64,000 nt of DNA from Chitinophagaceae bacterium (GTDB lineage Bacteria; Bacteroidota; Bacteroidia; Chitinophagales; Chitinophagaceae), in assembly GCA_022843585.1 (NCBI GenBank), contig JALHNJ010000003.1, positions 248,001 through 312,000 on the forward strand. The letters run 5' to 3'. Both the position numbers and the translations under genes were made by a program. Below the pieces are notes generated by a model. It saw nothing but the letters and a program-made list of their open reading frames with translations, was not told where the DNA came from and did not search any database. Shown one piece after another: positions 45,360 through 61,399 of this stretch (its first letter is position 1; each line of letters starts with the position of its first letter).

Positions 45360-45881
45360 ATGAACCTAGATTTTATATACCTGCTGGACGGTAGTTTTCA
45401 TCCCGAATCAAGAGTGTGGGTGTACCAAAGCAGCCGTTTATTTAGCCTTAGCGAAGCTTTTGATATTGAAGACTTACTGAAAGAATTTACAGCGCACTGG
45501 AAGAGCCATGGTACCCCGGTAAAAGGAGCTGGTTATTTATTCTTTGGGCAGTTCATCATATTAATGGCAGATGAAAAAGCTACGGGAGTTAGCGGATGCA
45601 GTACGGATAGTTCGGTGCGTCTTATAAAAGATGTTGAGCAACGTTTTGCTGTTAATATGTTCGACAGAACTACGCTAACATTTGTGGTTAAAGATAAAAT
45701 TGAGTTATTTCCCCTCTCCCAATTGCAATATGCTGTTGATAATGGGTTTATTAAAGCCGATACCTTATATTTTAATAACCTGGTTCAAACGAAAGAAGAA
45801 TTGGAAACCCAATGGATTATTCCGGTAAAGGATAGTTGGCTGTCAAAGAGAGTTTCCTTTGCAAAATCAACAAGCCAGTAA
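45360..45881 (+). CDS. conserved Bacteroidota protein, function unknown
   Basis: 173 aa soluble protein with SRVWVYQSSRLFSLSEAFDIED near the start. It resembles a group often labelled as ABC transporter ATPase in databases, although no Walker A motif is present, so that label should not be used. Its role is unknown. Its end lies 5 bp from the convergent PorP/SprF gene. Confidence 0.7.
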   Translation: MNLDFIYLLDGSFHPESRVWVYQSSRLFSLSEAFDIEDLLKEFTAHWKSHGTPVKGAGYLFFGQFIILMADEKATGVSGCSTDSSVRLIKDVEQRFAVNMFDRTTLTFVVKDKIELFPLSQLQYAVDNGFIKADTLYFNNLVQTKEELETQWIIPVKDSWLSKRVSFAKSTSQ

Positions 45882-45886
45882 TTTGA

Positions 45887-46879
45887 TTAATACCAGGGCA
45901 CCAGCCTTTTCATCTCCGAATTATCTGGTGACGTATACACCATACTAATTTCAAACCCGTTTCTTGTTTGTCCACCTGTTTTTAATTTAGAAGTAGTATA
46001 GTCAAAACTAAACCCGGTTTGAAAGCCTTCCAATTGATAGCCGATATACGGTATCACCGCATCTTTTAACCGATACCACGCACCAAGACTTATTATATTC
46101 TTCTTTTGATCGCCTAACTGAATGCCATATGCAGAACCTAATGTTGTTTCATTGGTGCTACCCTGCTGCTGGTAATTGAGTGAGAAATAAAATATACCAC
46201 TGTATCCAACATCTATATTTCCACCTGCAACGGCGGTATATCTTTTGGGCAATTGAAATTGAGGATCGTTATATACATCTTTTTTCTTTAAAAGATTATA
46301 TACACTAATCCCTGCAAAGAAAGATTTGTCGGGCAATGAAGCATGGTAAGCCGCTCCCGTACTCATATCAAAATAGTTTCTATTGCCACCCGGGAGTTCT
46401 TCTCCTATTGGTAAAGAAACATCAAAGCCTCCGCTGGTTAATTGGTTTTCAAAACTTAGCTTATTAAAATTGATTCTTCTCTCACTATATACTCCTTGCA
46501 AACCCAAGCCGATCGTATGGACATTATCAGGATCAAGAGAAAGATTATAAGCCGTACTAAAACTGATAGAATTAAATTGTACCGCACCTTCAAGCGTTTT
46601 ATCACTAAGGGCAGCAATACCAAAGCCTAACTTATTTCCCGGTGCCAGTTTATCTCTCAATGGACTTACATCTACCGACAATGAAGTAGTACTGTATGGC
46701 GAGCCGCCGTTTCCCCATTGCGAACGATAATTACCGGCAACTCTAAATGAACCTTCGGTATAACCGGTAAATGCCGGATTTATCAATAGCGGTGAAGAAT
46801 AGAATTGAGAAAAATGTGGCGATTGTGCTTGTGACAATCCCATCCAACATAGTAAGATTATAGTTATCCTGAGTTTCAT
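45887..46879 (-). CDS. type IX secretion PorP/SprF family outer-membrane protein
   Basis: 330 aa. A signal peptide (MKLRITIILLCWMGLSQA) leads into the family start SPHFSQFYSSPLLINPAFTG and a barrel with GNYRSQWGNGGSPYSTTSLS. PorP/SprF proteins occur in the outer membrane of T9SS bacteria and attach or export gliding-type cargo. They are typically encoded next to the large cargo protein whose display they support, as here: it follows the giant gene by 10 bp and ends the three-gene operon. The frame opens upstream at 46915, overlapping the giant gene; the ATG at 46879 starts the signal. Confidence 0.93.
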   Translation of the reverse strand: MKLRITIILLCWMGLSQAQSPHFSQFYSSPLLINPAFTGYTEGSFRVAGNYRSQWGNGGSPYSTTSLSVDVSPLRDKLAPGNKLGFGIAALSDKTLEGAVQFNSISFSTAYNLSLDPDNVHTIGLGLQGVYSERRINFNKLSFENQLTSGGFDVSLPIGEELPGGNRNYFDMSTGAAYHASLPDKSFFAGISVYNLLKKKDVYNDPQFQLPKRYTAVAGGNIDVGYSGIFYFSLNYQQQGSTNETTLGSAYGIQLGDQKKNIISLGAWYRLKDAVIPYIGYQLEGFQTGFSFDYTTSKLKTGGQTRNGFEISMVYTSPDNSEMKRLVPWY

Positions 46880-46889
46880 TACCATCATT

Positions 46890-49800
46890 TTAGCGTATAA
46901 GAACTGTTTTACCACTTGCTTTTATAATAGTGCCATCCTGGCTTTTCCCTAAGAATACCCAGGTATAAGTTTCTGTTGGCTGTGGTATATTTTTATAATT
47001 ACCATCCCAGCCCTCTCCCACATTTTGTGTTTGATACATTAGCTGCCCCCATCGGTTATATACTCTGAAATAATCAATTGAAAAAGCACTTACACCTAAC
47101 GGCCTTAATTTATCATTCGCATTATTACTGTTTGGAGTAAATGCTTTAGGAACATAAATATCAGCCTTATCAAAAGCCTGTACTAATACTGTATCTGTAA
47201 CAAGACAGCCCGCCGCAATTCTTATTCTCACCAAATATTCTCTATCTGCAGAAGTAGTTACAACCGGATTTTGAATGGTTGAATTATTAAGTGCAGTTGC
47301 CGGTTGCCAAACATATTGCACGCCAATATTTCTGGCCGATAATGTAAAAGCTGTATTTTTTAATACTCTTACATTGTCATATCTTATTCCGGGTGTCGCA
47401 GGAATTACCGTTATCAATTTTTTAATAGTATCTGCTAATTGCACACAGGCCGTAGGAGTAGCAATTAGCTCTACAGTGTAAGAACCAGGCTGAGTATAAA
47501 CATGTGTTGGTGCAAAAAGTGAAGAAGTGCTATTATCACCAAAATTCCAACTCCAGTTTACTGTACCACTGCTTCCCGTTGTGCTTGTATTATTGAAAAT
47601 GGTTATCTCATTTTGACATAACGCTGAAAAATCAAAAGCTGTTATTGGTTTTTGAATTACCTGAATATTAGCCGTGTTTGAAGCCATCGCTTTACATCCA
47701 TTAGCAGCATTGATCTCCACACTATAAATTCCTTGTGTAGTTACGGTAATGACATCTGTTGTAGCACCATTTATAGGAGCTCCATTTAATAACCATTGGT
47801 AAGAAACACCTCCTGATACGGTAAGTATTTGAGATGAACCGATACAAATTGTGGCATTACCGGGACTGATTGATCCTGTTGGTAGCGAATTAACCGTCAG
47901 TATTAGGGTAGCTGTTGAATCACAATTATTAGAACCTGTAAGTATAACATTATAACTACCAGAGGCAGTATAACTATTACCATTCCAGCTAAATGGTAAT
48001 TGATTAGCACAAATGCTGATAGAAGTAGTGCTTGTTGCCACCGGTTTTATTGCAAGATTCAATGTGGCAATGGAGTCGCAACCATTAGAACCCGGGATAG
48101 TAACATTGTAACTACCTGCCGCAGTATAATTATTGCCATTCCAGCTATATGGCAATTGATTGGTACAGACTTCAATATTGGTTGAGCTGGTTTGTATATT
48201 TTTTATTTCCAAATTCAAGGTGGCTATGGAATCACAACCGTTAGAACCATTTAATGTAACATTATAAATTCCCGATGTTGAATAGTTATTCCCATTCCAT
48301 ATATAAGGGGCCTGGTTTGCACAGATACTTGCATTAGTGATACTCGTCAATACAGGGTTTACCGTAAGGTTCAAGGAAGCAATCGAATCGCAGCCATTTG
48401 AACCTGCCAGCGTAATATTGTAAATACCTGTTGCAGTATAATTATTGCCATTCCATAGATACGGCAATTGATTTTCGCATCGGCTGATATTTGTTATACT
48501 GGTTAATACAGGAGTTACACCAAGGTTTAAAGTAGCAATGGAATCACAGCCTGCCTGACTTACCAGTGTTACATTAAATGATCCTGCCGTATTATAGCTA
48601 TTACCATTCCAACTATAGGGCAATTGATTTGCGCATACATTAACATTGGTAGTGCTGGTTAACACGGTGCCTATAGAAAGATTTAACGTAGCAATGGAGT
48701 CGCAGCCATTTGAGCCGACCAATGTAACAGTATAGATTCCTGCCAAATTATAATTATTACCATTCCAATTATAAGGAAGTTGATTATTGCAAATACTTAC
48801 ATTAGTGGTACTTGTTTGCACAGCATTTACAACAAGGTTGAGGGTAGCTATGGAATCGCAGCCATTGGCCCCAATTAGGGTAACGTTGTAGTTTCCTGCA
48901 CCATTATAAATATTACCATTCCAGTTATACGGAAGTTGATTGGAACAAACAGCCACATTAGTAATGCTTGATGATATTGAATTAATTGAAAAGTTGAGGG
49001 TAGCAATGGAATCGCAGCCGTTGGAGCCTAGTAATGTAACATTATAAGTGCCTGCCGTGTTATATGCATTCCCATTCCAGTTATACGGCAATTGATTGGA
49101 GCAAGTACTGGCATTAGTTGTACTAGTTAATACCGGATTAATGGCAAGATTTAAAGTAGCAATTGAATCACAACCAGATTGGCTTACCAATGTTACATTG
49201 AAGGTGCCTGCTGTATTGTAATTATTTCCATTCCAAGGATACGGAAGTTGATTAGTACAAACAGCCACATTGGTGGTACTCGTCAATATTGCACTTACCG
49301 TAAGATTTAAGGTAGCTATCGAATCGCAGCCATTGCTCCCCATTAAAGTAACACTATAAATACCCCCAGCATTATAGTTATTTCCATTCCAGCTATAAGG
49401 TAATTGGTTAGTGCAAATATTTATGTTAGTAGTACTGGTTGCAGCTACGTTAACCGAAAGATTTAAAGTAGCGACTGAATCGCATCCATTAGAACCAGTT
49501 AGTGTAACAACATATGTGCCTGCCGAATTATAACTATTCCCATTCCAGTTATACGGCAATTGGTTAGTACAGGTACTTATATTGGTGGTACTTGAGGATG
49601 TTTGATTGATTAAAAGATTTAAGGTGGCAATGGAATCGCAGCCATTTGAACCTAACAAGGTGATATTATATGTTCCAGCAATATTATAATTATTCCCATT
49701 CCATATATAGGGAAGTTGGTTGGTACAAACACTTGCATTGGTGGTGCTTGTTAATATCGGATTTACCGAAAGATTCAAAGTTGCAATTGAATCACAACCC

Positions 49801-52800
49801 GATTGACTCACTAATATGACATTAAATGTTCCAGCCGCATTATAATTATTTCCATTCCATATAAAGGGAAGTTGGTTGGTACACACACTTGCATTGGTGG
49901 TACTCGTCAAGACTGTATTAACCGTAAGATTTAAAGTAGCAATCGAATCGCAGCCATTTGTTCCGGGCAGTGTAACGTTATAAGTCCCCCCGGCATTATA
50001 ATTATTTCCATTCCAGCTATAGGGAAGCTGATTGGTGCAAATACTGATATTAGTAGTACTGGTTGAAACCGGATTAACGGATAAATTTAACGTTGCTATC
50101 GAATCGCAATTATTAGAACCCGTTAGTGTAACAAAATAACTACCTCCGGCATTATAACTATTCCCATTCCAGCTATAGGGCAATAGATTTGAACAAACAG
50201 CTACATTGGTTATACTTGATGACGTTGGATTAATAGCAAGGTTAAGTGTGGCTATCGAGTCACATCCGTTTGAACCAATTAAAGTAACATTATATGTTCC
50301 GGCGGAACTATAATTGTTTCCGTTCCATACATACGGAAGTTGATTGGTACATACGGAGAGATTTGTAGTACTGGTTAAAGGTGGCGAAACTGTCAAATTA
50401 AGTGTTGCAATAGAATCGCAGCCTGCCTGTGTAGTCAACGTCACATTGTAAGTACCGGCGGTGTTATAATTATTTCCATTCCAGCTAAATGGAAGTTGAT
50501 TAGAGCAAATAGCAATATTAGTTGTGCTAGTAGGTGTTGGGGTTAAAGTTATTATTGACGTGTTAGACAGAGTTGAACTACAGCCATTAACAGATGCACT
50601 CACCTGGTACGTACCAGCAATAGTAGCATTATAAGTTGAAGATGTAACTCCATTAATAAGATTATTATCTCTTGTCCATTGATAAGTATCACCACCGGTC
50701 GCAGTTAACAATTGTGAGTTACCCTGACAAATTGTTGCTGAAGCAGGGCTTAAAGTTGGTGTTGGAGGTTCGGCTGGTGTTGTAAAAGAAATTACTGTCC
50801 AATTACTACAGAAGGTATAAGAATTTATGTCGAAGTTAGGGATCGTAGCTCCACGTACATGAATATAATAGGTAGTGGATGGAAGTAAACCACCTACTGA
50901 TCCACCTATGGATGTTGTAGATATTCTAGCAGGCAAAGGTGGTGGGCTAGAAGACAAGGTTACTGCATATTGGAATATTTTAACCGGACTTCCATAATCC
51001 CTCCAACTAAAAGAAACTTGATTGGGACAAACAGATGTTGTTGCCAACTCCGAAACACCACCGTAATAAACAGATACAGGATTAGAGTAAACAGTATCAC
51101 AATCTGGCTTTCTGGATTCTACTATATAAGTGCCTGAATAACTTGCTGTCATTGCAAAATTTAAACTTTGATTTCCTCCACCACCACCAATTGGTACATA
51201 GTAGGATGCTGGTCCCATCCATTCATAGTCTTGTTCGTTCTGGGTTTCTGGTATGCCCACATTTACATTTGCACCCTCACAGTAAACACCATTACCCCCA
51301 AGTGAGGGTGCTATGGATGCAGAACCAAGAACAACTGTTTGAGAAAAAATTTCACATAGTCCTGTTATAGATTTTACGTAATATGTACCTGCTGTAGTTG
51401 CGGTATAGGTAGAACCAGATTGTCCGGGTATTAGTATCCCATCTTTGTACCAGCTATATCCGGTTCCGCCTGAAACTGTTAACTCAATAGAATTGACACC
51501 AAAACAAAAACGACCCGATGCCGGTGTAATAGAAAGATTACCAGAACAGGGATTGAAATTCCATAAATCATTCAGTGAAAAATACTGGCTGATATATTTC
51601 CCTAGCCCACTTCCACCAAACATCCAAAGCTTTCCTTCACTTGTTTTGTAACTCATACTACTGTTTCTTCCTCCCGGGTTATTTGTTACACTTGGAACAG
51701 TAGCTGTTCCATAAATACCTGGGTTAGAACCTGGCTCTCCCTTTACCCATGTCCATACATTCAAAAACCGATTGTACTTCCATACATCGTTAAGCGCATC
51801 GCCACCCCCAAATAAATAAAACTCATCGCTGTTTGATACCCATGCAGACATATTAGACCTTCCGCCAGGTGTGTTTTCTACAGAGGGTACCCCCATATAG
51901 CCAAAAACGGGAGTAATATTATTTAAGTCGCTTCCATTAACCCATGTCCAAATATCTGTGGATGGCTCATACTTCCAGAGATCACTTAAATAACCCTCAG
52001 CATTCTCCTGAAAAGCTTTACCATAACCTCCAAATAGCCATAAATTGCCATCACTGTCTAAAAATCCTGCAGAAGCATTCCTGCCACCGGGTTGAGTGTT
52101 TACAGTTCCAGCTCCGATGACACCATAAACTCCGGCATTATCAATTGTTTTACTTCCCTTAATAAATGTCCATTGTGTTGTTGAAGGGTTGAATTTCCAA
52201 AGATCGTTAAGATACCCACTTCCACCGCTTTCACCATATCCATAGCCTCCAAATAGCCATAGCATCCCGTTGCTATCTGTCCATGTTATGGCATCATATC
52301 TTGAGCCAGGCTTGTTTGTTGCAGATGCTACCCCTATAGTACCATAGCTTCCTAGATTATTAAGAGTATTATCTCCTTTTATCCATGTCCATTGAGAAGT
52401 GGCAGGATCAAATCTCCATAGATCATTTAAATAACCTGCTGTAGCTGTAGTTGAATAACCATTACCACCAAAAAGCCAAAGTCGGCCATTGTTATCTTTC
52501 CAGGTCATACATGCAAATCTGCCCCCAGGCCTGTTAGAGACTGCTGGTACATTAACAACGCCATAATTACCGGTTAAATCAGCAAGACTATCACCTGCAG
52601 TCCATGTCCATTGATTAGTACCCGGCTGATATCTCCACATATCTGACAAATACCCCTGCTGGTTGATGCCACCCACTCCATTTCCACCAAATAACCAAAA
52701 GTCTCCTGCTGCATCCATCCATGTTCCTGCACTATAACGGTTACCCGGATAATTCGCAGCATTAGTTGTATTAATTGTTCCATACACACTACTCCCTATT

Positions 52801-54185
52801 CTGGAAAAATCTCTTATCCAAGTCCAGTTACTGGAGGAGATAGTAAATCTCCACAACTCATTATTGGTATAGCCCCCAAAAAGCCATAGGTTTCCAGTAG
52901 ACTGAAACCAAAAATGGCAACTTGACCTGCCGCCCGGTTTATTCGCCGCAGCCGGTACTCCCATTGTACCAAAAACTGTAGTGCCACCAGGTGTATTATC
53001 CCCTTTAATCCATACCCACTGGTTAGCGGCAATATTATATCTCCACAAATCATTTAATCTGCCTACACCTGATGCGCCATAACCATCACCCCCAAATAAC
53101 CAAAAATTACCTGATCCATCAATTTGAGAACTTACTGACTCTCTTGCTCCAGGATTATTGGTGGCAGCACCCGTCCCCATTGTCCCGTACACCCCTGCAT
53201 TGTTGATAGTATTAGGCCCTTTCATCCAAGTCCACTGAGTAGTTGCAATATTATAGCGCCATAAATCACTCAACCTGCCATTGGTATTGGTTGCGGGGCG
53301 ACCATACCCGCCGAATAACCAAATATTATTGCTGGCATCAATAGACATAGCTGCAAACTCACGGCCACCCGGTTTATTTGTGGCTGAAGCTGTGCCCTGT
53401 GTTCCATAGACACCCAAAAAAAGACCAGACTTATCACCCTTCAACCATGTCCATTGATTAGTAGTAGTATTATATCGCCATAAATCATTAAGTAAACCGA
53501 TGCCGCTTTCATTATAGCCATACCCACCAAAAAGATAAAAATTTCCACTATTATCTTTACATGCCATAGTTCCTTCCCTTGAGCCCGGTTTATTTGCAGG
53601 ACTGGGGGTTCCCATTGTACCATATACCCCGGATACATAAGGTGTGTTATTTCCACTCATCCATGTCCATTGATTTGATGTAGGATTATATCGCCACAAA
53701 TCATTCAGTCTATCTGAATAAGAATAACCCTGAGCATAACCATCACCTCCAAAAATCCAGATATTTCCCACTGCATCTACCCAGCCACTACCATTACTTC
53801 TTGCACCGGGATAGTTGGTAGCTGAAGGCACTGTAATAGTTCCATATACACCAGAAGTATTGGTACTTTTACTACCCGAAACCCAAGTCCACATATTAGT
53901 TACTGGCGAGTATTTCCACAAATCATTTAGCCTTCCTTGTGTACTTTCACCATAACCTTGGCCGCCAAATAACCAAAAATTACCTGATGCGTCTGTTAGG
54001 TAGATTGCTGCACTTCTTTGCCCTGGTCTATTATTACTATTAGCAACATTTTGCGTTCCATAAATCCCGAAGTTTGTATTACTTATTCCTTCATCCCCTT
54101 TCATCCAAACCCATTGGTCATTCTGTGAACGAACTGCCTTTGTATATAACAAAAAAATTGTAAGCAAGACAAATATTTTTTTCAT
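46890..54185 (-). CDS. giant T9SS cargo: kelch propeller, 17 tandem Ig-like repeats, PKD, gliding-type C-terminus
   Basis: 2,431 aa with signal peptide (MKKIFVLLTIFLLYTKAVRS, about residues 1-21). In order: 12 kelch-like blades (about 24-880), two Ig-like segments and an FN3-like domain (about 880-1215), 17 tandem 52-residue repeats (about 1218-2102), an Ig-like segment, a PKD domain (NWSWNFGDNSTSS, about 2190-2260) and the gliding-motility/CHU_C C-terminal domain (DIYVPKAFTPNSNNANDKL to the end), which is the type B T9SS sorting signal. It is probably displayed on or released from the cell surface as an adhesin. It is 23 bp downstream of the CHAT gene and 10 bp upstream of porP/sprF. The frame opens 51 bp upstream, but the 54185 ATG starts the signal. 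Confidence 0.92.
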   Translation of the reverse strand: MKKIFVLLTIFLLYTKAVRSQNDQWVWMKGDEGISNTNFGIYGTQNVANSNNRPGQRSAAIYLTDASGNFWLFGGQGYGESTQGRLNDLWKYSPVTNMWTWVSGSKSTNTSGVYGTITVPSATNYPGARSNGSGWVDAVGNIWIFGGDGYAQGYSYSDRLNDLWRYNPTSNQWTWMSGNNTPYVSGVYGTMGTPSPANKPGSREGTMACKDNSGNFYLFGGYGYNESGIGLLNDLWRYNTTTNQWTWLKGDKSGLFLGVYGTQGTASATNKPGGREFAAMSIDASNNIWLFGGYGRPATNTNGRLSDLWRYNIATTQWTWMKGPNTINNAGVYGTMGTGAATNNPGARESVSSQIDGSGNFWLFGGDGYGASGVGRLNDLWRYNIAANQWVWIKGDNTPGGTTVFGTMGVPAAANKPGGRSSCHFWFQSTGNLWLFGGYTNNELWRFTISSSNWTWIRDFSRIGSSVYGTINTTNAANYPGNRYSAGTWMDAAGDFWLFGGNGVGGINQQGYLSDMWRYQPGTNQWTWTAGDSLADLTGNYGVVNVPAVSNRPGGRFACMTWKDNNGRLWLFGGNGYSTTATAGYLNDLWRFDPATSQWTWIKGDNTLNNLGSYGTIGVASATNKPGSRYDAITWTDSNGMLWLFGGYGYGESGGSGYLNDLWKFNPSTTQWTFIKGSKTIDNAGVYGVIGAGTVNTQPGGRNASAGFLDSDGNLWLFGGYGKAFQENAEGYLSDLWKYEPSTDIWTWVNGSDLNNITPVFGYMGVPSVENTPGGRSNMSAWVSNSDEFYLFGGGDALNDVWKYNRFLNVWTWVKGEPGSNPGIYGTATVPSVTNNPGGRNSSMSYKTSEGKLWMFGGSGLGKYISQYFSLNDLWNFNPCSGNLSITPASGRFCFGVNSIELTVSGGTGYSWYKDGILIPGQSGSTYTATTAGTYYVKSITGLCEIFSQTVVLGSASIAPSLGGNGVYCEGANVNVGIPETQNEQDYEWMGPASYYVPIGGGGGNQSLNFAMTASYSGTYIVESRKPDCDTVYSNPVSVYYGGVSELATTSVCPNQVSFSWRDYGSPVKIFQYAVTLSSSPPPLPARISTTSIGGSVGGLLPSTTYYIHVRGATIPNFDINSYTFCSNWTVISFTTPAEPPTPTLSPASATICQGNSQLLTATGGDTYQWTRDNNLINGVTSSTYNATIAGTYQVSASVNGCSSTLSNTSIITLTPTPTSTTNIAICSNQLPFSWNGNNYNTAGTYNVTLTTQAGCDSIATLNLTVSPPLTSTTNLSVCTNQLPYVWNGNNYSSAGTYNVTLIGSNGCDSIATLNLAINPTSSSITNVAVCSNLLPYSWNGNSYNAGGSYFVTLTGSNNCDSIATLNLSVNPVSTSTTNISICTNQLPYSWNGNNYNAGGTYNVTLPGTNGCDSIATLNLTVNTVLTSTTNASVCTNQLPFIWNGNNYNAAGTFNVILVSQSGCDSIATLNLSVNPILTSTTNASVCTNQLPYIWNGNNYNIAGTYNITLLGSNGCDSIATLNLLINQTSSSTTNISTCTNQLPYNWNGNSYNSAGTYVVTLTGSNGCDSVATLNLSVNVAATSTTNINICTNQLPYSWNGNNYNAGGIYSVTLMGSNGCDSIATLNLTVSAILTSTTNVAVCTNQLPYPWNGNNYNTAGTFNVTLVSQSGCDSIATLNLAINPVLTSTTNASTCSNQLPYNWNGNAYNTAGTYNVTLLGSNGCDSIATLNFSINSISSSITNVAVCSNQLPYNWNGNIYNGAGNYNVTLIGANGCDSIATLNLVVNAVQTSTTNVSICNNQLPYNWNGNNYNLAGIYTVTLVGSNGCDSIATLNLSIGTVLTSTTNVNVCANQLPYSWNGNSYNTAGSFNVTLVSQAGCDSIATLNLGVTPVLTSITNISRCENQLPYLWNGNNYTATGIYNITLAGSNGCDSIASLNLTVNPVLTSITNASICANQAPYIWNGNNYSTSGIYNVTLNGSNGCDSIATLNLEIKNIQTSSTNIEVCTNQLPYSWNGNNYTAAGSYNVTIPGSNGCDSIATLNLAIKPVATSTTSISICANQLPFSWNGNSYTASGSYNVILTGSNNCDSTATLILTVNSLPTGSISPGNATICIGSSQILTVSGGVSYQWLLNGAPINGATTDVITVTTQGIYSVEINAANGCKAMASNTANIQVIQKPITAFDFSALCQNEITIFNNTSTTGSSGTVNWSWNFGDNSTSSLFAPTHVYTQPGSYTVELIATPTACVQLADTIKKLITVIPATPGIRYDNVRVLKNTAFTLSARNIGVQYVWQPATALNNSTIQNPVVTTSADREYLVRIRIAAGCLVTDTVLVQAFDKADIYVPKAFTPNSNNANDKLRPLGVSAFSIDYFRVYNRWGQLMYQTQNVGEGWDGNYKNIPQPTETYTWVFLGKSQDGTIIKASGKTVLIR
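47880..50532 (-). repeat. 17 tandem 156-bp coding repeats with a four-repeat superperiod
   Basis: The units code for a 52-residue motif with LPYSWNGNNYN and GCDSIATLNL, each with two cysteines spaced 29 residues apart. Copies 1, 5, 9 and 13 have a Gln-x-Gly before CDS; copies 3, 7 and 11 begin Ser-Ser and follow copies (2, 6, 10) that end in Thr/Ile-Ser. This shows that blocks of four (624 bp) were the unit of expansion. The DNA copies differ at many silent sites. Confidence 0.9.
51550..54125 (-). repeat. 12 kelch-like coding repeats
   Basis: Each copy spans about 64-74 residues. It has WTWMKG at the start, then VYGT, an NxPGxR motif, a DxxGNxWLFGG stretch and LNDLWRYN. Copies 6 and 11 are shorter in the loop before LNDLW. 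The array is the N-terminal part of the giant protein and probably folds as one or two propellers. Confidence 0.9.
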
Positions 54186-54208
54186 TTCTGTAGTTTTGGT
54201 TTGCTTAA

Positions 54209-57145
54209 TCACTTCACTAATACCCATGCTGCCCATTTATAAGGTTCGTTTCTATACTTATTTCTCATTAAATTTTGTGCTGTGTAAAATGCAGTAGCAA
54301 TGGCTTTTCCTTCAAACATATTTTTATAAAACAACTGCATAAACTCTGCTGTTTCTATATCCGGCACTTTCCATAGACTCATTACCAAATGTTGCACACC
54401 CGCCATTTTAAATGAACGTTGTAAACCATATACACCTTCGCTTCCTTTAATATCTCCTAATGCTGTTTCGCAGGCACTCAGCACCACCAAACTTGTATTG
54501 GGAAGATAAAGATTAGATACTTCATAGGCTGTCAGGATGCCATCATCTGTACCTGTTGTTTTTTTTCCCTTCCATGCATCATTAGCGCCGGCAAACAGCA
54601 GACCTGAGCGAAATAATGAATTACCTGATTGCTGAAACACCTTTCCGCCTGTTGAACTATCAACAGGTTCACCTGGCTTCTTTTTCTCAGGATCATCGAA
54701 GAAAAAACCATGGGTGGCTATGTGTAATATTTTTGGTGATTGCTTTCCGGTTAAGTTTTTAACGACATTCTCTTTCGCTGCAAGTCCTTGCACCACTGTG
54801 GGTGAAAATTTCTTAAGCCGCCCTGTCTTTGCAATTCCAATTACCTCTTTGGATGTGCCAGGTAAATAGTCGAACCCACTTCTCTTTGCAACACTACCTT
54901 TTTCATTATTTGGTTGTACACCTGTAGTATCGGTTACATACTGAATACCTCCGAATAAATATATTTTATCATTCACTTTTACATAACTGGAGTTTTGATC
55001 GGCAACAGCTGCAGTAGTTGACAGTTGTACCAATTGATATTTGTCGCTCAGGACTGTTGACTTGTCAACCGGCAATGCTGCAAATGCTATGCGATGTAAT
55101 AAACCTGCCGGAGCAAAATAAATTGTTGTTATCCCTTTCAAATCATTTTCCAGCGGTTTCCAGATTGTGTTATACGACAATTGAGATAAGGAACTGTCTT
55201 TTCCAACTTTTAGTCCCCTTGTATAAAATGAATTAATACTTTGTCCGCCTTCAGCAGTTTTTGTAAGCAGATTTTCTAACTGTTTTTTTTCAAACAGCAT
55301 TACAGAAATTGGCTCGGCCATATCCTTTTTTAAAATGAGTGCTGCATAATAAGTACTATCTGTGTGGCGGCGTCCGTCAAAATAATTGAATTCAATAAAT
55401 TCTATAGTAGCTTCGGAAGACTGTAGCTTTTGTTGTATTGCTTTCCAGCCAGCAGTCACATCCTGTGTTTTTTTGAATGCTTCAGAATTGCGTACCAAAT
55501 CCTTTTCCAGTAAAGATGCTTTTTCTGTTATATCCTTTAAATGCTCCTTTGGAACATCTTCTACTTTGGAGCTAATTGCCGCTATTTGTTTTTTTAAATC
55601 TAACCAGGTATCATACTTTTTCGAGATTGCTGTATCACCGCTGTTATAAATAATTTGATGTAACTGTTTAGCAGAAGAAAGTATCTGGTTTCTTCGCAAA
55701 AGAGAAATTAAATATGGCTGACCTTTATTACCGCTACTTAACTTGTCAAAATAAAAAGAATAGTATTCACCTTCTGCCCCGGCTATATTATCCAGGTATA
55801 ATTGTTTTTCATCTTCAGAAGTAAAAGAGAACATCCGGGCTGCTTGTGCATTTTGTGCTTCAAATGCTTTTACATACAATTCATTTGCCTGTGCAATTTT
55901 ATTATCCGCCCAATATACTTTTGCAAGACTTAATGTGTTGCTTGTATAAAATGGGTGCTCTTCACCAAGATTTTTTTCCCATAAATTTCTTGCTTGCAAT
56001 AGAAATTGTTCAGCCTTATCGTATTTACCAGTAACAAAATATAGGGAACCAAGACTGTTATTATTGATAGCTATATCAGCTTCAGCCGATGCACCAATTC
56101 CTTCAAATAGTTTTCCTGCTTCACTTGCAAGAGATTCTGCTTCATCAAATTTTCCCATTTCTCTATATAGCTGTGCAATATCACTGCAACTTTGTGCATA
56201 GTAATAACCATTGGGAGCTATTTTTTGTCTTATATCTTTTGCTTCGAGATAAAGTGGTTCCGCCTTATCATATTGCTTCATAAAATAATAGAGGTCGGCA
56301 AGAATAGTACAACTAAGTGCATAGTCATCATGCTGCTTTGTAAATACTTCCTCTCTTACTTTTCTTGCCTCAATATACAATGGCTCTGCCTGCTGGAATT
56401 TTCCCATGTCCCGATAAATATTGGCAAGATTTACACAGCTTATAGCATAGGTAGCCTTCGGAATTCCTTTTACCCTTCCTCGTATTTCTTTAGCTTCCAG
56501 TGCAAGCGGTTCGGCTTTATCATATTGACCTAAATTCCAGTATATAGCCGCCAGGTTATTACAACTTTGCGCATAAGCACCATGTTCCTTTGTAAATAAT
56601 TGTTCCCGGATAGCCCTTGCCTCCAAATGTTGTGCTTCTGCCTTTTCAAATTCACCACTATCGTTATACAAAATTCCTAATGCATTACAACTACCGGCAT
56701 ACTCTCTGCTTTTCTTTGTGTGGAGTTTTTCCCAAATCTCTTTTGCTTCTATATAAAATGCTTCTGCTCTATTGTACTGACGGAGCAGATAATAAATCTG
56801 TCCGAGAAGATTTGCATTTGCTGCATAAGTGTCGTTAGACAAACCTAGCTTTTGCCTGATCACTTCTCTTGCTTCGAGATATATAGGTTCCGCATTATTA
56901 TACTGACTTTTATTAAAGTAAATAAGATTGGCAAGATTGCTGAGGATTTGAATATAAGAGTCGGAGTAAACAGAATCTTTTGGAATAAGCTGTTTAGAAA
57001 GCGTATAATATTTAATGGCACTGTCTGTATTCTTTTGCACTCTAAACGTATCAGCATTGTCCCGGTAATGTTGCCATGACTGAGCCTCAACTTCCGGGAG
57101 AAATGAAAATAAAGCCAATACAACATATAACAATCTAATGACCAT
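54209..57145 (-). CDS. exported TPR-CHAT protein (caspase-like peptidase)
   Basis: 978 aa. A signal peptide (MVIRLLYVVLALFSFLPEVEAQ) is followed by about nine tetratricopeptide repeats of 42 residues (about 40-430; units such as YAQSCNNLAAIYWNLGQYDKAEP), a linker and a CHAT domain (about 690-978). The CHAT catalytic pair is present: His in LHIATHGFFF (about 812) and Cys in LVVLSACETALG (about 892), with the closing YKWAAWVLVK. CHAT domains share the caspase/separase fold. The gene heads the operon; its stop lies 23 bp before the giant cargo gene. Processing, sensing or release of the cargo is a hypothesis. The ATG at 57145 is used; the frame opens 3 codons earlier at 57154. Confidence 0.92.
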   Translation of the reverse strand: MVIRLLYVVLALFSFLPEVEAQSWQHYRDNADTFRVQKNTDSAIKYYTLSKQLIPKDSVYSDSYIQILSNLANLIYFNKSQYNNAEPIYLEAREVIRQKLGLSNDTYAANANLLGQIYYLLRQYNRAEAFYIEAKEIWEKLHTKKSREYAGSCNALGILYNDSGEFEKAEAQHLEARAIREQLFTKEHGAYAQSCNNLAAIYWNLGQYDKAEPLALEAKEIRGRVKGIPKATYAISCVNLANIYRDMGKFQQAEPLYIEARKVREEVFTKQHDDYALSCTILADLYYFMKQYDKAEPLYLEAKDIRQKIAPNGYYYAQSCSDIAQLYREMGKFDEAESLASEAGKLFEGIGASAEADIAINNNSLGSLYFVTGKYDKAEQFLLQARNLWEKNLGEEHPFYTSNTLSLAKVYWADNKIAQANELYVKAFEAQNAQAARMFSFTSEDEKQLYLDNIAGAEGEYYSFYFDKLSSGNKGQPYLISLLRRNQILSSAKQLHQIIYNSGDTAISKKYDTWLDLKKQIAAISSKVEDVPKEHLKDITEKASLLEKDLVRNSEAFKKTQDVTAGWKAIQQKLQSSEATIEFIEFNYFDGRRHTDSTYYAALILKKDMAEPISVMLFEKKQLENLLTKTAEGGQSINSFYTRGLKVGKDSSLSQLSYNTIWKPLENDLKGITTIYFAPAGLLHRIAFAALPVDKSTVLSDKYQLVQLSTTAAVADQNSSYVKVNDKIYLFGGIQYVTDTTGVQPNNEKGSVAKRSGFDYLPGTSKEVIGIAKTGRLKKFSPTVVQGLAAKENVVKNLTGKQSPKILHIATHGFFFDDPEKKKPGEPVDSSTGGKVFQQSGNSLFRSGLLFAGANDAWKGKKTTGTDDGILTAYEVSNLYLPNTSLVVLSACETALGDIKGSEGVYGLQRSFKMAGVQHLVMSLWKVPDIETAEFMQLFYKNMFEGKAIATAFYTAQNLMRNKYRNEPYKWAAWVLVK

Positions 57146-57354
57146 ACAATGCATCTGAATTTAAAGACAATCTAATCACCACAATGTGTTTGCTAATAAC
57201 CCTTAACAGGTCTTCCTAAAATTGGAGTGTTTTCAGAGATGGGATGGGTAAGTTCTCCTTGTCCATTCGGTTGCACTTTTGTTTCAAAAGGAGATATGCT
57301 TTGAAGATAGTAAGAAGAAATGAAGAAGAATAATTTTTGACTACCTGTTTATTA

Positions 57355-57378
57355 AAAATACCCAGAAGTAGGTATTTT
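57355..57378 (-). terminator. terminator of the 805-residue receptor gene
   Basis: An 8-bp stem AAAATACC / GGTATTTT with an 8-nt loop is followed by a T-rich stretch on the minus strand, 16 bp beyond the receptor stop codon. AT-rich stem, hence moderate certainty. Confidence 0.55.
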
Positions 57379-57393
57379 AAAACCACTACCTTG

Positions 57394-59805
57394 CTACTTT
57401 AGTTTGGGAAGCACCACCGGTTTTTTCTTCGGGGTCTTTGTCAAGTTATAAGCCAAACTCAACCTGAAATTTCGGGTTTGTGTGATGCTATAGCTTTCTA
57501 AATTGAAATTGGTGCCATAGGTAAATATCCTGCGCTGCTGGTTTACAAAGGGGTCAATTACATTTACCGTAACCACCATTTTCTTATTGAAGAATTTTTT
57601 CTGCAATCCCATATTCATACTGGTATTCCATCGGGCAAATCCCTGGGGGTTACCAAACCGGTTTACATTGAAACCGCCTGTAACATTCCATTTGTCAGTA
57701 GGTGCAAAACTTGAATTAATATTTGAAGTAAAAGAACCTCCATTGCGAAACTTACGAACTGATATATCAAAAGCACTGTATTTACTGTATGTATAACTGG
57801 CACTAACATTCACTTTTAGTTTTTTGGTGATAGTGACACCATTCCAGCTACTTACTTCATATTCCTTACGGCCGCTGATATTCTCCCAGGTAACCTGTGT
57901 TTTTCCTTCAGGTAACAATGTTCGTACCTGGCTAAAAATATCCTGTACACTGTTATACCCAACCCCAATGTTTACATAGTATTTTGGCTTAGTTCTTCCG
58001 GCTATGAAATCAAAATTATGTGCAGTGGATGCCTCCAGTTTTTCGTTACCGAAACGAACATTGTAAGGGTCAGAAAAATCGATGGTAGGATTTAATTCGC
58101 CAATGCCGGGTCTTCGGATGCTTCTACGATAGGCGAATGTCAGGTTTAATTTGTCTTTCCAGGTCTTATTGATGTTGGCAAATGGAAGCCAGGTAAAATA
58201 ATCGTTCTTAACATCACGGCTTTCTTTCAACAATTCAAACCAGATATCTGTTTTTTCTACTGAAGTTCCGGCGGTGAAACTGAAATCTTTGCCCAGTATC
58301 TGCTTTACGGATGCCCGTAGATTACTGACTGTTTGATGAAACCAGAAATCATTACTCAATAATTCCAGTTTCTCCATAGTGCCTTCCGGCTTCTTTTTGT
58401 AGGTGGCATTTACAATAACATGATTGTTGTTTCGGTTAAGTGCTGTACCTAATGACAAAAATGTTTTTTTGTTATCCAGCATTTTATCATAATTAACCCG
58501 AATACTATAGTTATTGATCTTTGTATTATTTAATTGCTGCTGCATTGAGTCAATACCATTGGGTGTAAAATCCGGATTGAAAAACTGCTGGTAAAAAAGC
58601 CGGTCATTTTGATTAGAGGAAAAACTATACCCGGTGATTATTCGCAAGGTTTCACCCAGTTTTCTTTTCCAGGTATAACTTAAATTAAGATTGGGACTGT
58701 AATTATCACCCTCACTTTGTACCTGCCGCCTGCTCAACCTCCATAACTCATCAAAGCGATTAATGTTTTGATATTCCGTGTTGTTACTGTTATCATAACT
58801 GTTCTGGTTATAATTTACAACCAGGTTTAACGAGTTCGCTTTATTAATGTCGTAATCGATGTTGGCCCTGAAGTTGGGCCGAATATTTTTATTAGTGTAG
58901 TTATTAGTAGTATTAAAAAAGTTTGAAGAATCCGTATAAATATTATTGCGGATTGAATAGCCATTTCCTTCAAACTCATTATAACCGCCACCTGCATTAA
59001 TATTTATTGCCAGGCCTTGTTTGCGATAAGTAAAACTTCCATTCATTGTTGCCTCACCTCTTGTTCCAGCCGTAACAGAAACCCTTCCGCTTATTCCTAC
59101 TTTGCCCTTCTTCGTAACAATATTAATTACACCGCCTTGCTCATTGGCATATTGTGGCGGCGGGTTTGTCATCACTTCGATTTTATCAATAGAACTTCCG
59201 GGCATTGATTCTAATAGATCCTGCAATTGCTGAAGATTTAATTCAACAGGTTTATCATCAATCAAAATTTTCGGTTCCTTTCCACGTACCGTTATTTTCC
59301 CATCGGGGTCTTTACCTACCAGTGGTACATTCGTCAACAGGTCGCTGGCAGTACTACCTGCAGCAATTGCTGATTCACCTGCATTAAACGTAATATTCCC
59401 TTCCTTCGATTCTATCAGTGGCTTTTCAGCATAAATAATTACCGCTTCTAAATTATCAGTTGAACGGGGCATTAATATAACATCCGAGAGATTAAAATCA
59501 AATCGTTCCATCCGAAAATAAATGCTATCAATAGTGAGTGGTTGCAGGCCTACATAACTAATACTTAATTTATAATACCCAAAATCGACATTTTGAAAAC
59601 TGAATTCTCCCGTCTTATCTGTTGAAATTGATCTAACCTTCAGCGAATCCGCAAAAGAAATTAACTGAACCGTGGCTCCTTCCAATGCTTTTTTCTTTTC
59701 ATCCATCACATTCCCCGTCAGTAAACCGGATGCAGCTTTCTCCTGTGCAACGGCAGAAATAAATAATAACAGGGCTGTTAAGGTGGAAGTGACTTTTTTA
59801 AGCAT
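57394..59805 (-). CDS. outer-membrane receptor, OMP_b-brl_3 / TonB-receptor type
   Basis: About 803 aa. A signal peptide (LKKVTSTLTALLLFISAVAQ) is followed by a regulatory-like sandwich (about 28-110, LLTGNVMDEKKKALEGATVQL), a plug-like domain with ILIDDKPVELN and IDKIEVMTNPPPQYANEQGGVINIVTKKG, and a barrel to the end. It resembles the protein at 3778-6396 in layout. Substrate unknown. The ATG at 59805 is used; a second in-frame ATG is at 59811. Preceded by a TATCTTTG box and divergent from miaB. Confidence 0.88.
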   Translation of the reverse strand: MLKKVTSTLTALLLFISAVAQEKAASGLLTGNVMDEKKKALEGATVQLISFADSLKVRSISTDKTGEFSFQNVDFGYYKLSISYVGLQPLTIDSIYFRMERFDFNLSDVILMPRSTDNLEAVIIYAEKPLIESKEGNITFNAGESAIAAGSTASDLLTNVPLVGKDPDGKITVRGKEPKILIDDKPVELNLQQLQDLLESMPGSSIDKIEVMTNPPPQYANEQGGVINIVTKKGKVGISGRVSVTAGTRGEATMNGSFTYRKQGLAININAGGGYNEFEGNGYSIRNNIYTDSSNFFNTTNNYTNKNIRPNFRANIDYDINKANSLNLVVNYNQNSYDNSNNTEYQNINRFDELWRLSRRQVQSEGDNYSPNLNLSYTWKRKLGETLRIITGYSFSSNQNDRLFYQQFFNPDFTPNGIDSMQQQLNNTKINNYSIRVNYDKMLDNKKTFLSLGTALNRNNNHVIVNATYKKKPEGTMEKLELLSNDFWFHQTVSNLRASVKQILGKDFSFTAGTSVEKTDIWFELLKESRDVKNDYFTWLPFANINKTWKDKLNLTFAYRRSIRRPGIGELNPTIDFSDPYNVRFGNEKLEASTAHNFDFIAGRTKPKYYVNIGVGYNSVQDIFSQVRTLLPEGKTQVTWENISGRKEYEVSSWNGVTITKKLKVNVSASYTYSKYSAFDISVRKFRNGGSFTSNINSSFAPTDKWNVTGGFNVNRFGNPQGFARWNTSMNMGLQKKFFNKKMVVTVNVIDPFVNQQRRIFTYGTNFNLESYSITQTRNFRLSLAYNLTKTPKKKPVVLPKLK

Positions 59806-59820
59806 TGGCATTTAGACGCC

Positions 59821-59828
59821 CAAAGATA
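59821..59828 (-). promoter_or_regulatory. -7 box of the 805-residue receptor gene
   Basis: On the minus strand TATCTTTG, a full match to TAnnTTTG, ending 15 bp before the ATG at 59805. No clear TTG at the -33 spacing. Confidence 0.45.
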
Positions 59829-59939
59829 GTTTTAACCTGCTCTGGTTTTAAAAGTTTTGGAAAAATGGTAAACACAAACAGTTGTTGGTCAAGCCTCCAT
59901 ATTTCGCTGACATACTGTCATAATCTTGGAGATTTTAGG

Positions 59940-59947
59940 TATATTTG
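59940..59947 (+). promoter_or_regulatory. -7 box of the miaB cluster
   Basis: TATATTTG, a full match to TAnnTTTG, 21 bp before the miaB ATG. A weak AAAGAAG follows near the start codon. Confidence 0.5.
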
Positions 59948-59968
59948 TCCTCCAAATTTTAAAGAAGA

Positions 59969-61399
59969 ATGCTTGATTACGTGTCGGATAAGATACAGGA
60001 CGAAGGAAGACAGGGTGAAGCTTTTTCATCCCTTTCTAACGACTCACAACTATTTAAGAAACGATTTTACATCGAGAGCTATGGCTGTGCCATGAACTTT
60101 GCGGATAGTGAGGTGGTGGCATCCATCTTAAATAAAGAGGGCTTTGGTGCAACCCGCAACCTTGAAGAAGCTGATCTTATTTTTATTAATACTTGTTCAA
60201 TCAGGGAAAAAGCGGAGCTAACCGTTCGAAAACGACTTACTGAATTTAGGTTACTGAAGAGAGCCAAAAAGGGAATGCTTATTGGCTTGCTCGGATGTAT
60301 GGCAGAACGGTTGAAATCAAAATTATTAGAAGAAGAAAAGCTGGTTGATATTGTTGTTGGTCCCGATGCTTATCGCTCATTACCTGCTTTGGTAATGGAA
60401 GCCGAAAGCGGACAAAAAGCAGTGAATGTTTTATTAAGCCGTGATGAAACATATGCTGATATTTCTCCGGTAAGATTAAATAGTAATGGCGTAAGTGCTT
60501 TTGTAAGTATTATGCGTGGCTGCAATAATATGTGTTCTTTCTGCGTGGTACCACTTACAAGAGGAAGAGAAAGAAGCCGCAGTGCAGAAAGTATTATTGC
60601 TGAATGTGCAGATTTATTTCAAAAGGGATACAAAGAAGTAACATTGCTTGGGCAAAATGTTGACAGCTATTATTATTTTGACGAGCAAAAAGATTCGTCG
60701 ATAACTTTTGCCATGCTTTTAGAAAAAGTAGCATTGATATCGCCGCTGCTTAGAGTTCGTTTCTCTACCTCGCATCCAAAAGATATTACAGACGAAGTGC
60801 TGCATACAATTGCAAAGCATGAAAATATCTGTAACCACATACACCTTCCAGTTCAAAGTGGTTCTTCAAGAGTGTTACAGTTAATGAACCGCACCTATAC
60901 CAGAGAATGGTATATGGCAAAAGTGGACAGGATCAAACAAATAATTCCCGACTGTGGAATTACAGCAGATATAATTACAGGTTTTTGCACCGAAGAAGAG
61001 CAAGACCATCAAGACACATTAAGCATAATGGAATATGCAAAATATGATTATGGCTATATGTATTTCTACTCTGAAAGACCGGGCACTTTAGCACAACGCA
61101 GATATGCAGATGATGTGCCATTGGAAGTAAAGAAAAGAAGATTGCATGAAGTAGTGCAGATGCAAAACAAGCTATCGCTGGAAAGCAATCTGAAGGATAT
61201 GGGTAAAACATTTAAAATTTTAATAGAAGGCGACAGCAAAAAAAGTGATACAGATTGGGTGGGAAGAAGTTCTCACGGTAAAGTGTTTGTTTTTCCTAAA
61301 GAAAATTATGAATTAAGTAAAGGAGATTATGTACTGGTAAAAGCAACACATTGTACCCAGGGAACATTATTAGGATCTATTGTCAACAATAAATTATAA
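59969..61399 (+). CDS. miaB: tRNA-2-methylthio-N6-dimethylallyladenosine synthase
   Basis: 476 aa. Radical-SAM methylthiotransferase adding the 2-methylthio group to i6A at tRNA position 37. The N-terminal MTTase domain has its three cluster cysteines in [23 protein letters not shown] and LLGCMAERL. The radical-SAM core has the CNNMCSFC triad (about residues 188-195) and later [14 protein letters not shown]. The TRAM domain forms the C-terminus (about 410-476, [13 protein letters not shown]). All catalytic cysteines are intact. Its TAA shares its final A with the ATG of the next gene (TAATG). Confidence 0.96.

Follow-up and report, generated by a model that had tools for sequence, protein, structure and literature searches.

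A predicted exported TPR-CHAT protein encoded ahead of a type B adhesin and its PorP/SprF shuttle in three closely related Chitinophagaceae

Introduction

Among the described type B cargo/shuttle systems of the type IX secretion system (T9SS), SprB-SprF, PG1035-PorP and Fjoh_3952-Fjoh_3951 all combine a large repetitive protein ending in a CHU_C/TIGR04131 domain with a PorP/SprF gene directly downstream. We analyzed a locus of this kind in a Chitinophagaceae bacterium, on a stretch of 64,000 nucleotides (contig JALHNJ010000003.1 of assembly GCA_022843585.1, positions 248,001 to 312,000; hereafter the window, whose numbering is used throughout). It has the same C-terminus, repetitive cargo and downstream PorP/SprF gene, and the SprA_N family is present in the host genome. 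In contrast to the three described pairs, the cargo carries a kelch head on a stalk of 52-residue units, and the pair is preceded, in three species, by a gene for a tetratricopeptide repeat (TPR) protein with a CHAT domain. The three-gene row is confirmed as that of a caspase-like protein of export type, a giant adhesin and the outer-membrane carrier of the latter. The explanation that we favour, and regard as somewhat probable, is a self-sufficient adhesin/shuttle pair that lies behind an exported CHAT protein with a different client.

Two other described systems resemble the row in its first gene. Csx29 of Craspase (type III-E CRISPR) likewise has a TPR array followed by a CHAT domain with a His/Cys dyad. 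Unlike Csx29, the protein described here has an export-type N-terminus, and its sequence matches in the PDB (29 out of 29, kinesin light chains first) cover only the TPR part. No Cas families were found by Pfam in 44 of the 45 open reading frames (ORFs) of at least 150 amino acids in the window (ORF 2-505 was unscanned, and CRISPR arrays were not searched as such). Cargo/shuttle operons containing PorE also encode a TPR protein together with a type B cargo and a shuttle; here, a CHAT domain takes the place of the propeller and OmpA domains. We know of no enzyme for the step that controls shedding or anchoring in type B secretion. A literature search, with most subscription papers outside its scope, returned nothing about this operon or about exported TPR-CHAT proteins of this type, and nothing joining the CHAT domain with type IX secretion or T9SS, TPR-CHAT with Bacteroidetes, or CHAT with gasdermin. 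The accessible text of PMC5108060 describes, for a relative of Beggiatoa, neighbouring CHAT proteins that carry TPRs at the N-terminus; that of PMC11854122, on CHAT proteins of the Bacteroides fragilis type VI secretion system (T6SS) region, does not mention TPRs.

Domain architecture of the row

The genes follow each other on the minus strand in the order TPR-CHAT, giant cargo, PorP/SprF (Table 1). From codon 18 of the giant (base 54185), the sequence reads like a typical signal peptide (judged without a prediction program), and this start gives 2,431 amino acids and a gap of 23 bases to the CHAT gene. For PorP/SprF, a start at codon 13 (base 46879) leaves 10 bases to the giant. The strand and both gaps given by an earlier sequence-only reading thus agree with the ORF coordinates. 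Sites returned by promoter and terminator scans are no commoner than in shuffled sequence and hence uninformative on co-transcription.

In the giant, Kelch_4 (eight stretches) and PKD_4 score above the curated Pfam cut-offs. At the C-terminus, CHU_C reaches 38.5 bits (cut-off 27) and TIGR04131 44.6 bits (cut-off 35), while the third gene scores 151.6 bits for PorP_SprF PF11751 (cut-off 22.3) and 179.8 for TIGR03519 (cut-off 90.55). The length, the kelch blades, the gliding-type C-terminus and the PorP/SprF assignment of the sequence-only reading therefore hold. Its Ig-like repeats correspond to 17 copies of a 52-residue unit, without any Ig-family score on the giant at E values up to 0.01. The host genome (G000; 4.49 Mb, 20 contigs) contains four CHAT matches, five PorP/SprF genes and one SprA_N match. 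Three of its four other PorP genes directly follow a CHU_C gene, and none of the four has a CHAT gene in the stretch read. Pairing of type B cargo with PorP/SprF and anchoring at the surface are described in the accessible text of PMC9143113 and PMC12618676. The earlier expectation that PorP/SprF works with the adjacent cargo is in line with this adjacency, here and in the host genome, and with the published pairing. The data support giant and PorP/SprF as an ordinary type B T9SS cargo with its cognate shuttle.

The first gene scores 179.3 bits for CHAT (PF12770; cut-off 24), and TPR_12 is above its cut-off in five stretches. A repeat search found eight ungapped TPR copies with a period of 123-126 bases, so that the roughly nine TPRs counted earlier are a fair estimate. 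Alignment of 73 CHAT ORFs of more than 700 amino acids (of 77 found, the window's included) places His815 in HIATHG and Cys895 in LSACET, both in near-invariant columns, as anticipated from the single sequence. This dyad suggests that the TPR-CHAT protein is a peptidase. Its N-terminus, previously read as a signal peptide, is of export type by hydropathy, and hydrophobic N-termini occur in 66 of the 70 complete CHAT ORFs (simple hydropathy rule, no signal-peptide program).

Table 1. Features of the three-gene row and its flanks in window coordinates.
Feature	Position	Strand	Basis
Gene 1: TPR-CHAT protein, predicted exported, 981 aa (978 aa from 57145)	54209..57154	-	ORF; PF12770; TPR_12 in 5 stretches; hydrophobic N-terminus
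TPR array, about residues 61-430, 41-42-residue period	55865..56974	-	Pfam; direct repeat family D5; PDB sequence relatives are TPR proteins
Codon of putative catalytic His815 (HIATHG)	54710..54712	-	His in 72/73, 1 gap; invariant in alignment A2
Codon of putative nucleophile Cys895 (LSACET)	54470..54472	-	Cys in 71/73, 2 gaps; invariant in alignment A2 (41 sequences)
Gene 2: giant T9SS cargo of type B; 2,431 aa with the putative signal-peptide start, ORF reaches 54236 (2448 aa)	46890..54185	-	ORF and domains
Kelch head, about residues 30-900 of the 2448-aa ORF; 11 blade motifs by one pattern, mostly about 73 aa apart	51537..54149	-	Kelch matches; motif spacing and divergence
Stalk, 17 copies of a 52-aa unit	47892..50549	-	17 CDSIATL-type motifs at exact 52-aa spacing; 156-base repeats
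PKD domain, residues 2204-2261	47454..47627	-	PF18911, E 9.1e-16
Type B sorting domain (CHU_C / TIGR04131), residues 2362-2430	46947..47153	-	Pfam; TIGR04131 44.6 bits
Gene 3: PorP/SprF outer-membrane shuttle; ORF reaches 46915	45887..46879	-	PF11751 151.6 bits; TIGR03519 179.8 bits
Flank: outer-membrane beta-barrel protein	57394..59811	-	PF14905; adjoins the site in 13/13 genus-mate intervals read
Flank marker: convergent 173-aa gene, kept across genus and order	45360..45881	+	Found in 57/58 genomes
Flank marker: radical-SAM/TRAM protein (here called miaB)	59969..61399	+	PF00919, PF04055, PF01938; found in 57/58 genomes

Presence and absence of the row and its parts

Only three close species are known to have the row, and its parts occur separately elsewhere. 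Searching 42 genomes of the genus with the giant revealed, among the matches listed, the two relatives G058 and G059, both with the whole row at the corresponding position. It lies on one contig in G059 (Chitinophagaceae bacterium IBVUCB2), with the barrel protein, CHAT, giant, PorP and the 173-aa gene in the same order and identities to the window of 93%, 85%, 67% (aligned residues), 94% and 92%, respectively. In G058, a metagenome assembly, the row genes are found at ends of three contigs, in an arrangement compatible with this order. The ratio of nonsynonymous to synonymous substitution rates (dN/dS) between G000 and G059 is low (CHAT 0.09, PorP 0.04, cargo 0.18), and rough given a dS of 0.7-1.5.

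The site was surveyed in those 24 of 34 genus-mates that have both flank markers on one contig, five further genus genomes (G060-G064) falling outside this set. The whole row is missing there in all 24. The markers are separated by 177-4,114 bases in 22 genomes, 5,542 in G033 and 7,329 in G001; because these intervals are too short for both, the row together with the barrel gene is absent between the markers. Thirteen intervals were read gene by gene (G001, G004, G009, G012, G015, G017, G022, G025, G027, G028, G029, G032 and G033), and all but that of G033 lack matches to the CHAT, CHU_C, type A and PorP models. The other 11, assessed by length only (177-2,592 bases), belong to genomes without any match to the window CHAT (G003, G006, G007, G011, G013, G016, G023, G024, G026, G030 and G034). 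One flank marker is inverted in G012 and G028. No CHAT, CHU_C or PorP was found in five partial stretches (L123-L127), which stem from among the ten genus-mates with markers missing or on different contigs, or from a second contig of G033. G033 itself carries the barrel gene and a CHAT gene at the site. This CHAT gene is 40% identical to the window's, its end is separated from the 173-aa gene by 8 bases, and the interval contains neither cargo nor PorP. A tree built from 104 CHAT sequences places it next to those of the operon (local support 0.53; 0.92 for the clade including L149). CHAT was probably at the site before the adhesin pair.

The interval between the 173-aa gene and miaB (window 45882-59968; L111, L112, L044) holds different extra genes in different species: a CHAT gene in G033, a 449-aa gene in G015 and several genes in G001, between the barrel gene and miaB. 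It is possibly an insertion spot.

Conversely, the cargo/PorP pair occurs without CHAT. At E values up to 1e-75, the window PorP matches three of the 396 genomes of the order, i.e., itself, G059 and G088 (45% identical); G058, absent from these three, was probably not part of the set. Among the matches listed, the best PorP matches in the 34 genus-mates are at most 39% identical. CHU_C-PorP pairs with no CHAT in the stretch are found in G088 and in the genus-mates G003, G016 and G024, the latter three without a window-CHAT match genome-wide. CHAT and the cargo/PorP pair thus each exist without the other.

Divergence of the kelch head

The kelch head (window 51537-54149; L140; L142) differs sharply between G000 and G058/G059, with more similar sequence on both sides. 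Compared with G000, the G058 contig that starts in CHAT is 99-100% identical at the DNA level over the first 800 bases and 91-94% over the last 400 bases of CHAT. Identity is 53-66% from the gene junction through the kelch head, then 71-88%, and 80-99% in the stalk. At the amino acid level, the heads of G058 and G059 are 78% identical, and either is 46-47% identical to that of G000. From these alignments, the head looks as if it had been replaced, with the change starting at the CHAT/giant junction. Note that G058, whose metagenome-derived row is spread over three contigs and matches G000 at 99-100% identity in parts, may be a mixed assembly.

The TPR region of CHAT (residues 61-430) follows the operon backbone and not the head type: in G058, 347 of 370 residues are identical to G000 and 314 of 370 to G059. 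Residues 431-610 are uninformative, as the three pairs are about equally distant (82-84%). That the TPR region tracks the backbone speaks against recognition specific to the head. A tuning of the TPRs to the kelch head is not supported, since G058 joins a G059-like head to a G000-like TPR region. Stalk, C-terminal domain (CTD) and PorP, better conserved than the head, are possible clients.

CHAT genes and T9SS cargo in other genomes

A match to the window CHAT was found in 35 of 58 genomes, the own genome included. This set comprises the 34 genus-mates and lies apart from G058 and G059. CHAT counts are lower bounds, as scoring was limited to 14 candidates per genome; in CHAT-free genomes all candidates were scored. 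The neighbourhood of CHAT genes was analyzed in 140 CHAT-bearing stretches: 46 of 47 fetched around CHAT matches, 15 of 20 from order-mates and others (two of the 20 chosen for PorP) and 79 of 79 from named genomes. Respectively 35, 13 and 57 of these are at least 10 kb long, and many are ended by contig ends. The total is 187 CHAT genes, of which 182 are distinct when compared over their last 120 residues; four stretch pairs share a CHAT. Genes were called by a greedy longest-ORF picker and T9SS genes by models iterated from the sequences of this analysis; the PorP model recovers the same five PorP genes in the own genome as Pfam.

PorP occurs anywhere in the stretch in four of the 140 (L086, L091, L105 and L144). 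It lies within two genes of CHAT only in the window's operon (L144 being the G059 copy), and within three genes also in L105, as the third gene. CHU_C genes are present in L045, L046, L068, L086, L105, L144, L147 and L197. Among unique CHAT genes, a T9SS cargo or PorP is the first downstream same-strand gene in 8 of 81. Six of these eight are type A cargo, the remaining two belonging to the window and G059 operons. The background, taken from genes five or more positions away, is 24 of 534. Fisher's test gives p = 0.056 with the operon and p = 0.26 without it (6/79). Outside this clade, the link is not beyond background, and a general CHAT-T9SS linkage is rejected. The neighbourhood count that the sequence-only reading had proposed as a check on its functional link hence turned out against it.

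Several other loci come nearest to such a linkage. In L105, a short-chain dehydrogenase and a glycosyltransferase separate CHAT from PorP. At least two genes lie between CHAT and PorP in L091, one of them on the other strand, and the PorP of L086 is itself on the other strand. PorP is absent from L045/L147 and L046, where CHU_C is nearby, and from the stretch of L197, where a 2,164-aa CHU_C protein is encoded one gene downstream of CHAT.

Competing explanations

According to the favoured explanation, the row unites two units. In the first, the giant would be exported by Sec; its type B CTD would pass the type IX translocon and be received by the PorP/SprF barrel of the adjacent gene, which would hold the giant on the surface with the 52-residue repeats as a stalk and the kelch head as a variable tip meeting ligands. 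The second would be a TPR-CHAT peptidase, exported and belonging to a widespread family, that probably occupied the site earlier than the pair; its TPR array would bind a client to be cut by His815/Cys895. In the ancestor of this species and its two close relatives, the adhesin pair would have come to lie behind the CHAT gene, resulting in a co-oriented, probably co-transcribed row. Because the parts are separable and the family is scattered, CHAT presumably works on something other than the adhesin, most likely another envelope component. The operon would then be one more cargo/shuttle pair with a lineage-specific neighbour. Several observations weigh against this explanation. Three species retain the intact row, at low dN/dS and with tight spacing, just as would be seen under a functional link. 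The pair may have been lost from G033, which would mean that CHAT did not come first; the support for the G033 branch is weak. In L105, from another family of the order, CHAT lies behind a CHU_C/PorP pair on the same strand, with two genes between.

The sequence-only reading proposed that the giant may be cut, activated or released by the exported CHAT peptidase, with TPRs that recognise the cargo or a partner (PorP/SprF in the model considered here). The tight, co-oriented row in three species and the intact dyad agree with this, and both proteins presumably pass the periplasm. In Craspase, the substrate is encoded near the protease gene. The accessible text of PMC9729208 and PMC10028731 describes a Craspase TPR-CHAT protease working with the product of a linked gene. 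Nonetheless, outside the clade no CHAT-cargo link exceeds background, the parts are separable, and the TPR region in G058 does not follow the head type, with which recognition of stalk, CTD or PorP is still compatible. Action on the giant is therefore not supported by the genome comparison, and we consider the proposal doubtful. A working link within this clade is possible, as is a role special to the three row-keeping species. Unlikely, in our estimate, is the narrower version in which an exported caspase-like peptidase was recruited to a type B adhesin/shuttle operon whose kelch head is exchangeable, and acts on the conserved stalk, CTD or PorP/SprF rather than on the head to control shedding or anchoring of the adhesin.

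TPR-CHAT could also be a periplasmic partner of PorP/SprF in a PorE-like place, anchoring or checking the shuttle without cutting the cargo. PorE, with TPR and propeller domains, forms a complex with PorP, and five operons that combine a PorE homologue, a type B substrate and a shuttle are present in F. johnsoniae (accessible text of PMC9143113 and PMC12618676). Yet the Pfam table of the CHAT protein contains neither an OmpA nor a propeller domain, and many CHAT genes have no PorP nearby, which makes this role very improbable. Somewhat less remote, though still improbable, is an envelope conflict or self-recognition module of sensor array and executioner, expanded in tandem, with its place before the pair incidental or regulatory. 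The described CHAT effectors are not known to act outside the cytoplasm, where the signal-peptide-like N-termini in the CHAT ORFs would place this protein, and PADLOC assigned it a generic TPR model only. In favour of such a module, CHAT genes occur in tandem arrays, and CHAT is among the named effector domains of conflict systems (accessible text of PMC10907252). CHAT-domain proteins, one apparently transmembrane, are also described for the variable T6SS region of Bacteroides fragilis (accessible text of PMC11854122).

The wider TPR-CHAT family

The less expected finding is the abundance and tandem expansion, in Bacteroidota, of export-type TPR-CHAT proteins in which His and Cys are conserved. 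The wider interest lies in this family, which many Bacteroidota encode, with N-termini of export type, the dyad intact and as many as eight genes in a row. If active peptidases, its members would form a class of envelope caspase-like enzymes without known substrates, for which the three row-bearing species offer the giant as a defined candidate.

Ten CHAT neighbours were scanned with Pfam. Six are proteins of housekeeping or central metabolism (D/K/N-class aminoacyl-tRNA synthetase, methionyl-tRNA synthetase, S-adenosylhomocysteine hydrolase, 3-hydroxyacyl-CoA dehydrogenase, an ATP synthase alpha/beta-family subunit and less clear cases). The rest are two T9SS cargo proteins (L042, type A; L046, type B), one outer-membrane barrel, one DUF2911 protein and one without a match (the list overlaps by one, L083 and L078 being the same group). 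By BLAST groups, with one member of each scanned by Pfam, the class II (D/K/N) aminoacyl-tRNA synthetase lies upstream of CHAT in nine loci and the 3-hydroxyacyl-CoA dehydrogenase downstream in ten. Several CHAT groups keep fixed places next to housekeeping genes; the paralogues beside the synthetase and dehydrogenase genes are those in L047, L049, L052, L053, L056-L058, L061, L063 and L076-L085, which suggests old, vertically kept copies.

Three further arrangements were observed. In L105 (15383-17329), PorP/SprF is fused to an OmpA domain (648 aa) behind the CHU_C gene. In L197 (9195-19770; Saprospiraceae), CHAT, a 258-aa gene and the 2,164-aa CHU_C protein are all on one strand. Finally, from L041 9740 to L042 15825 (G027:C62), eight consecutive TPR-CHAT genes on the same strand, with ORFs of about 990-1117 aa, lie between an ATP synthase alpha/beta-family gene, which precedes them, and a type A T9SS protein gene behind them.

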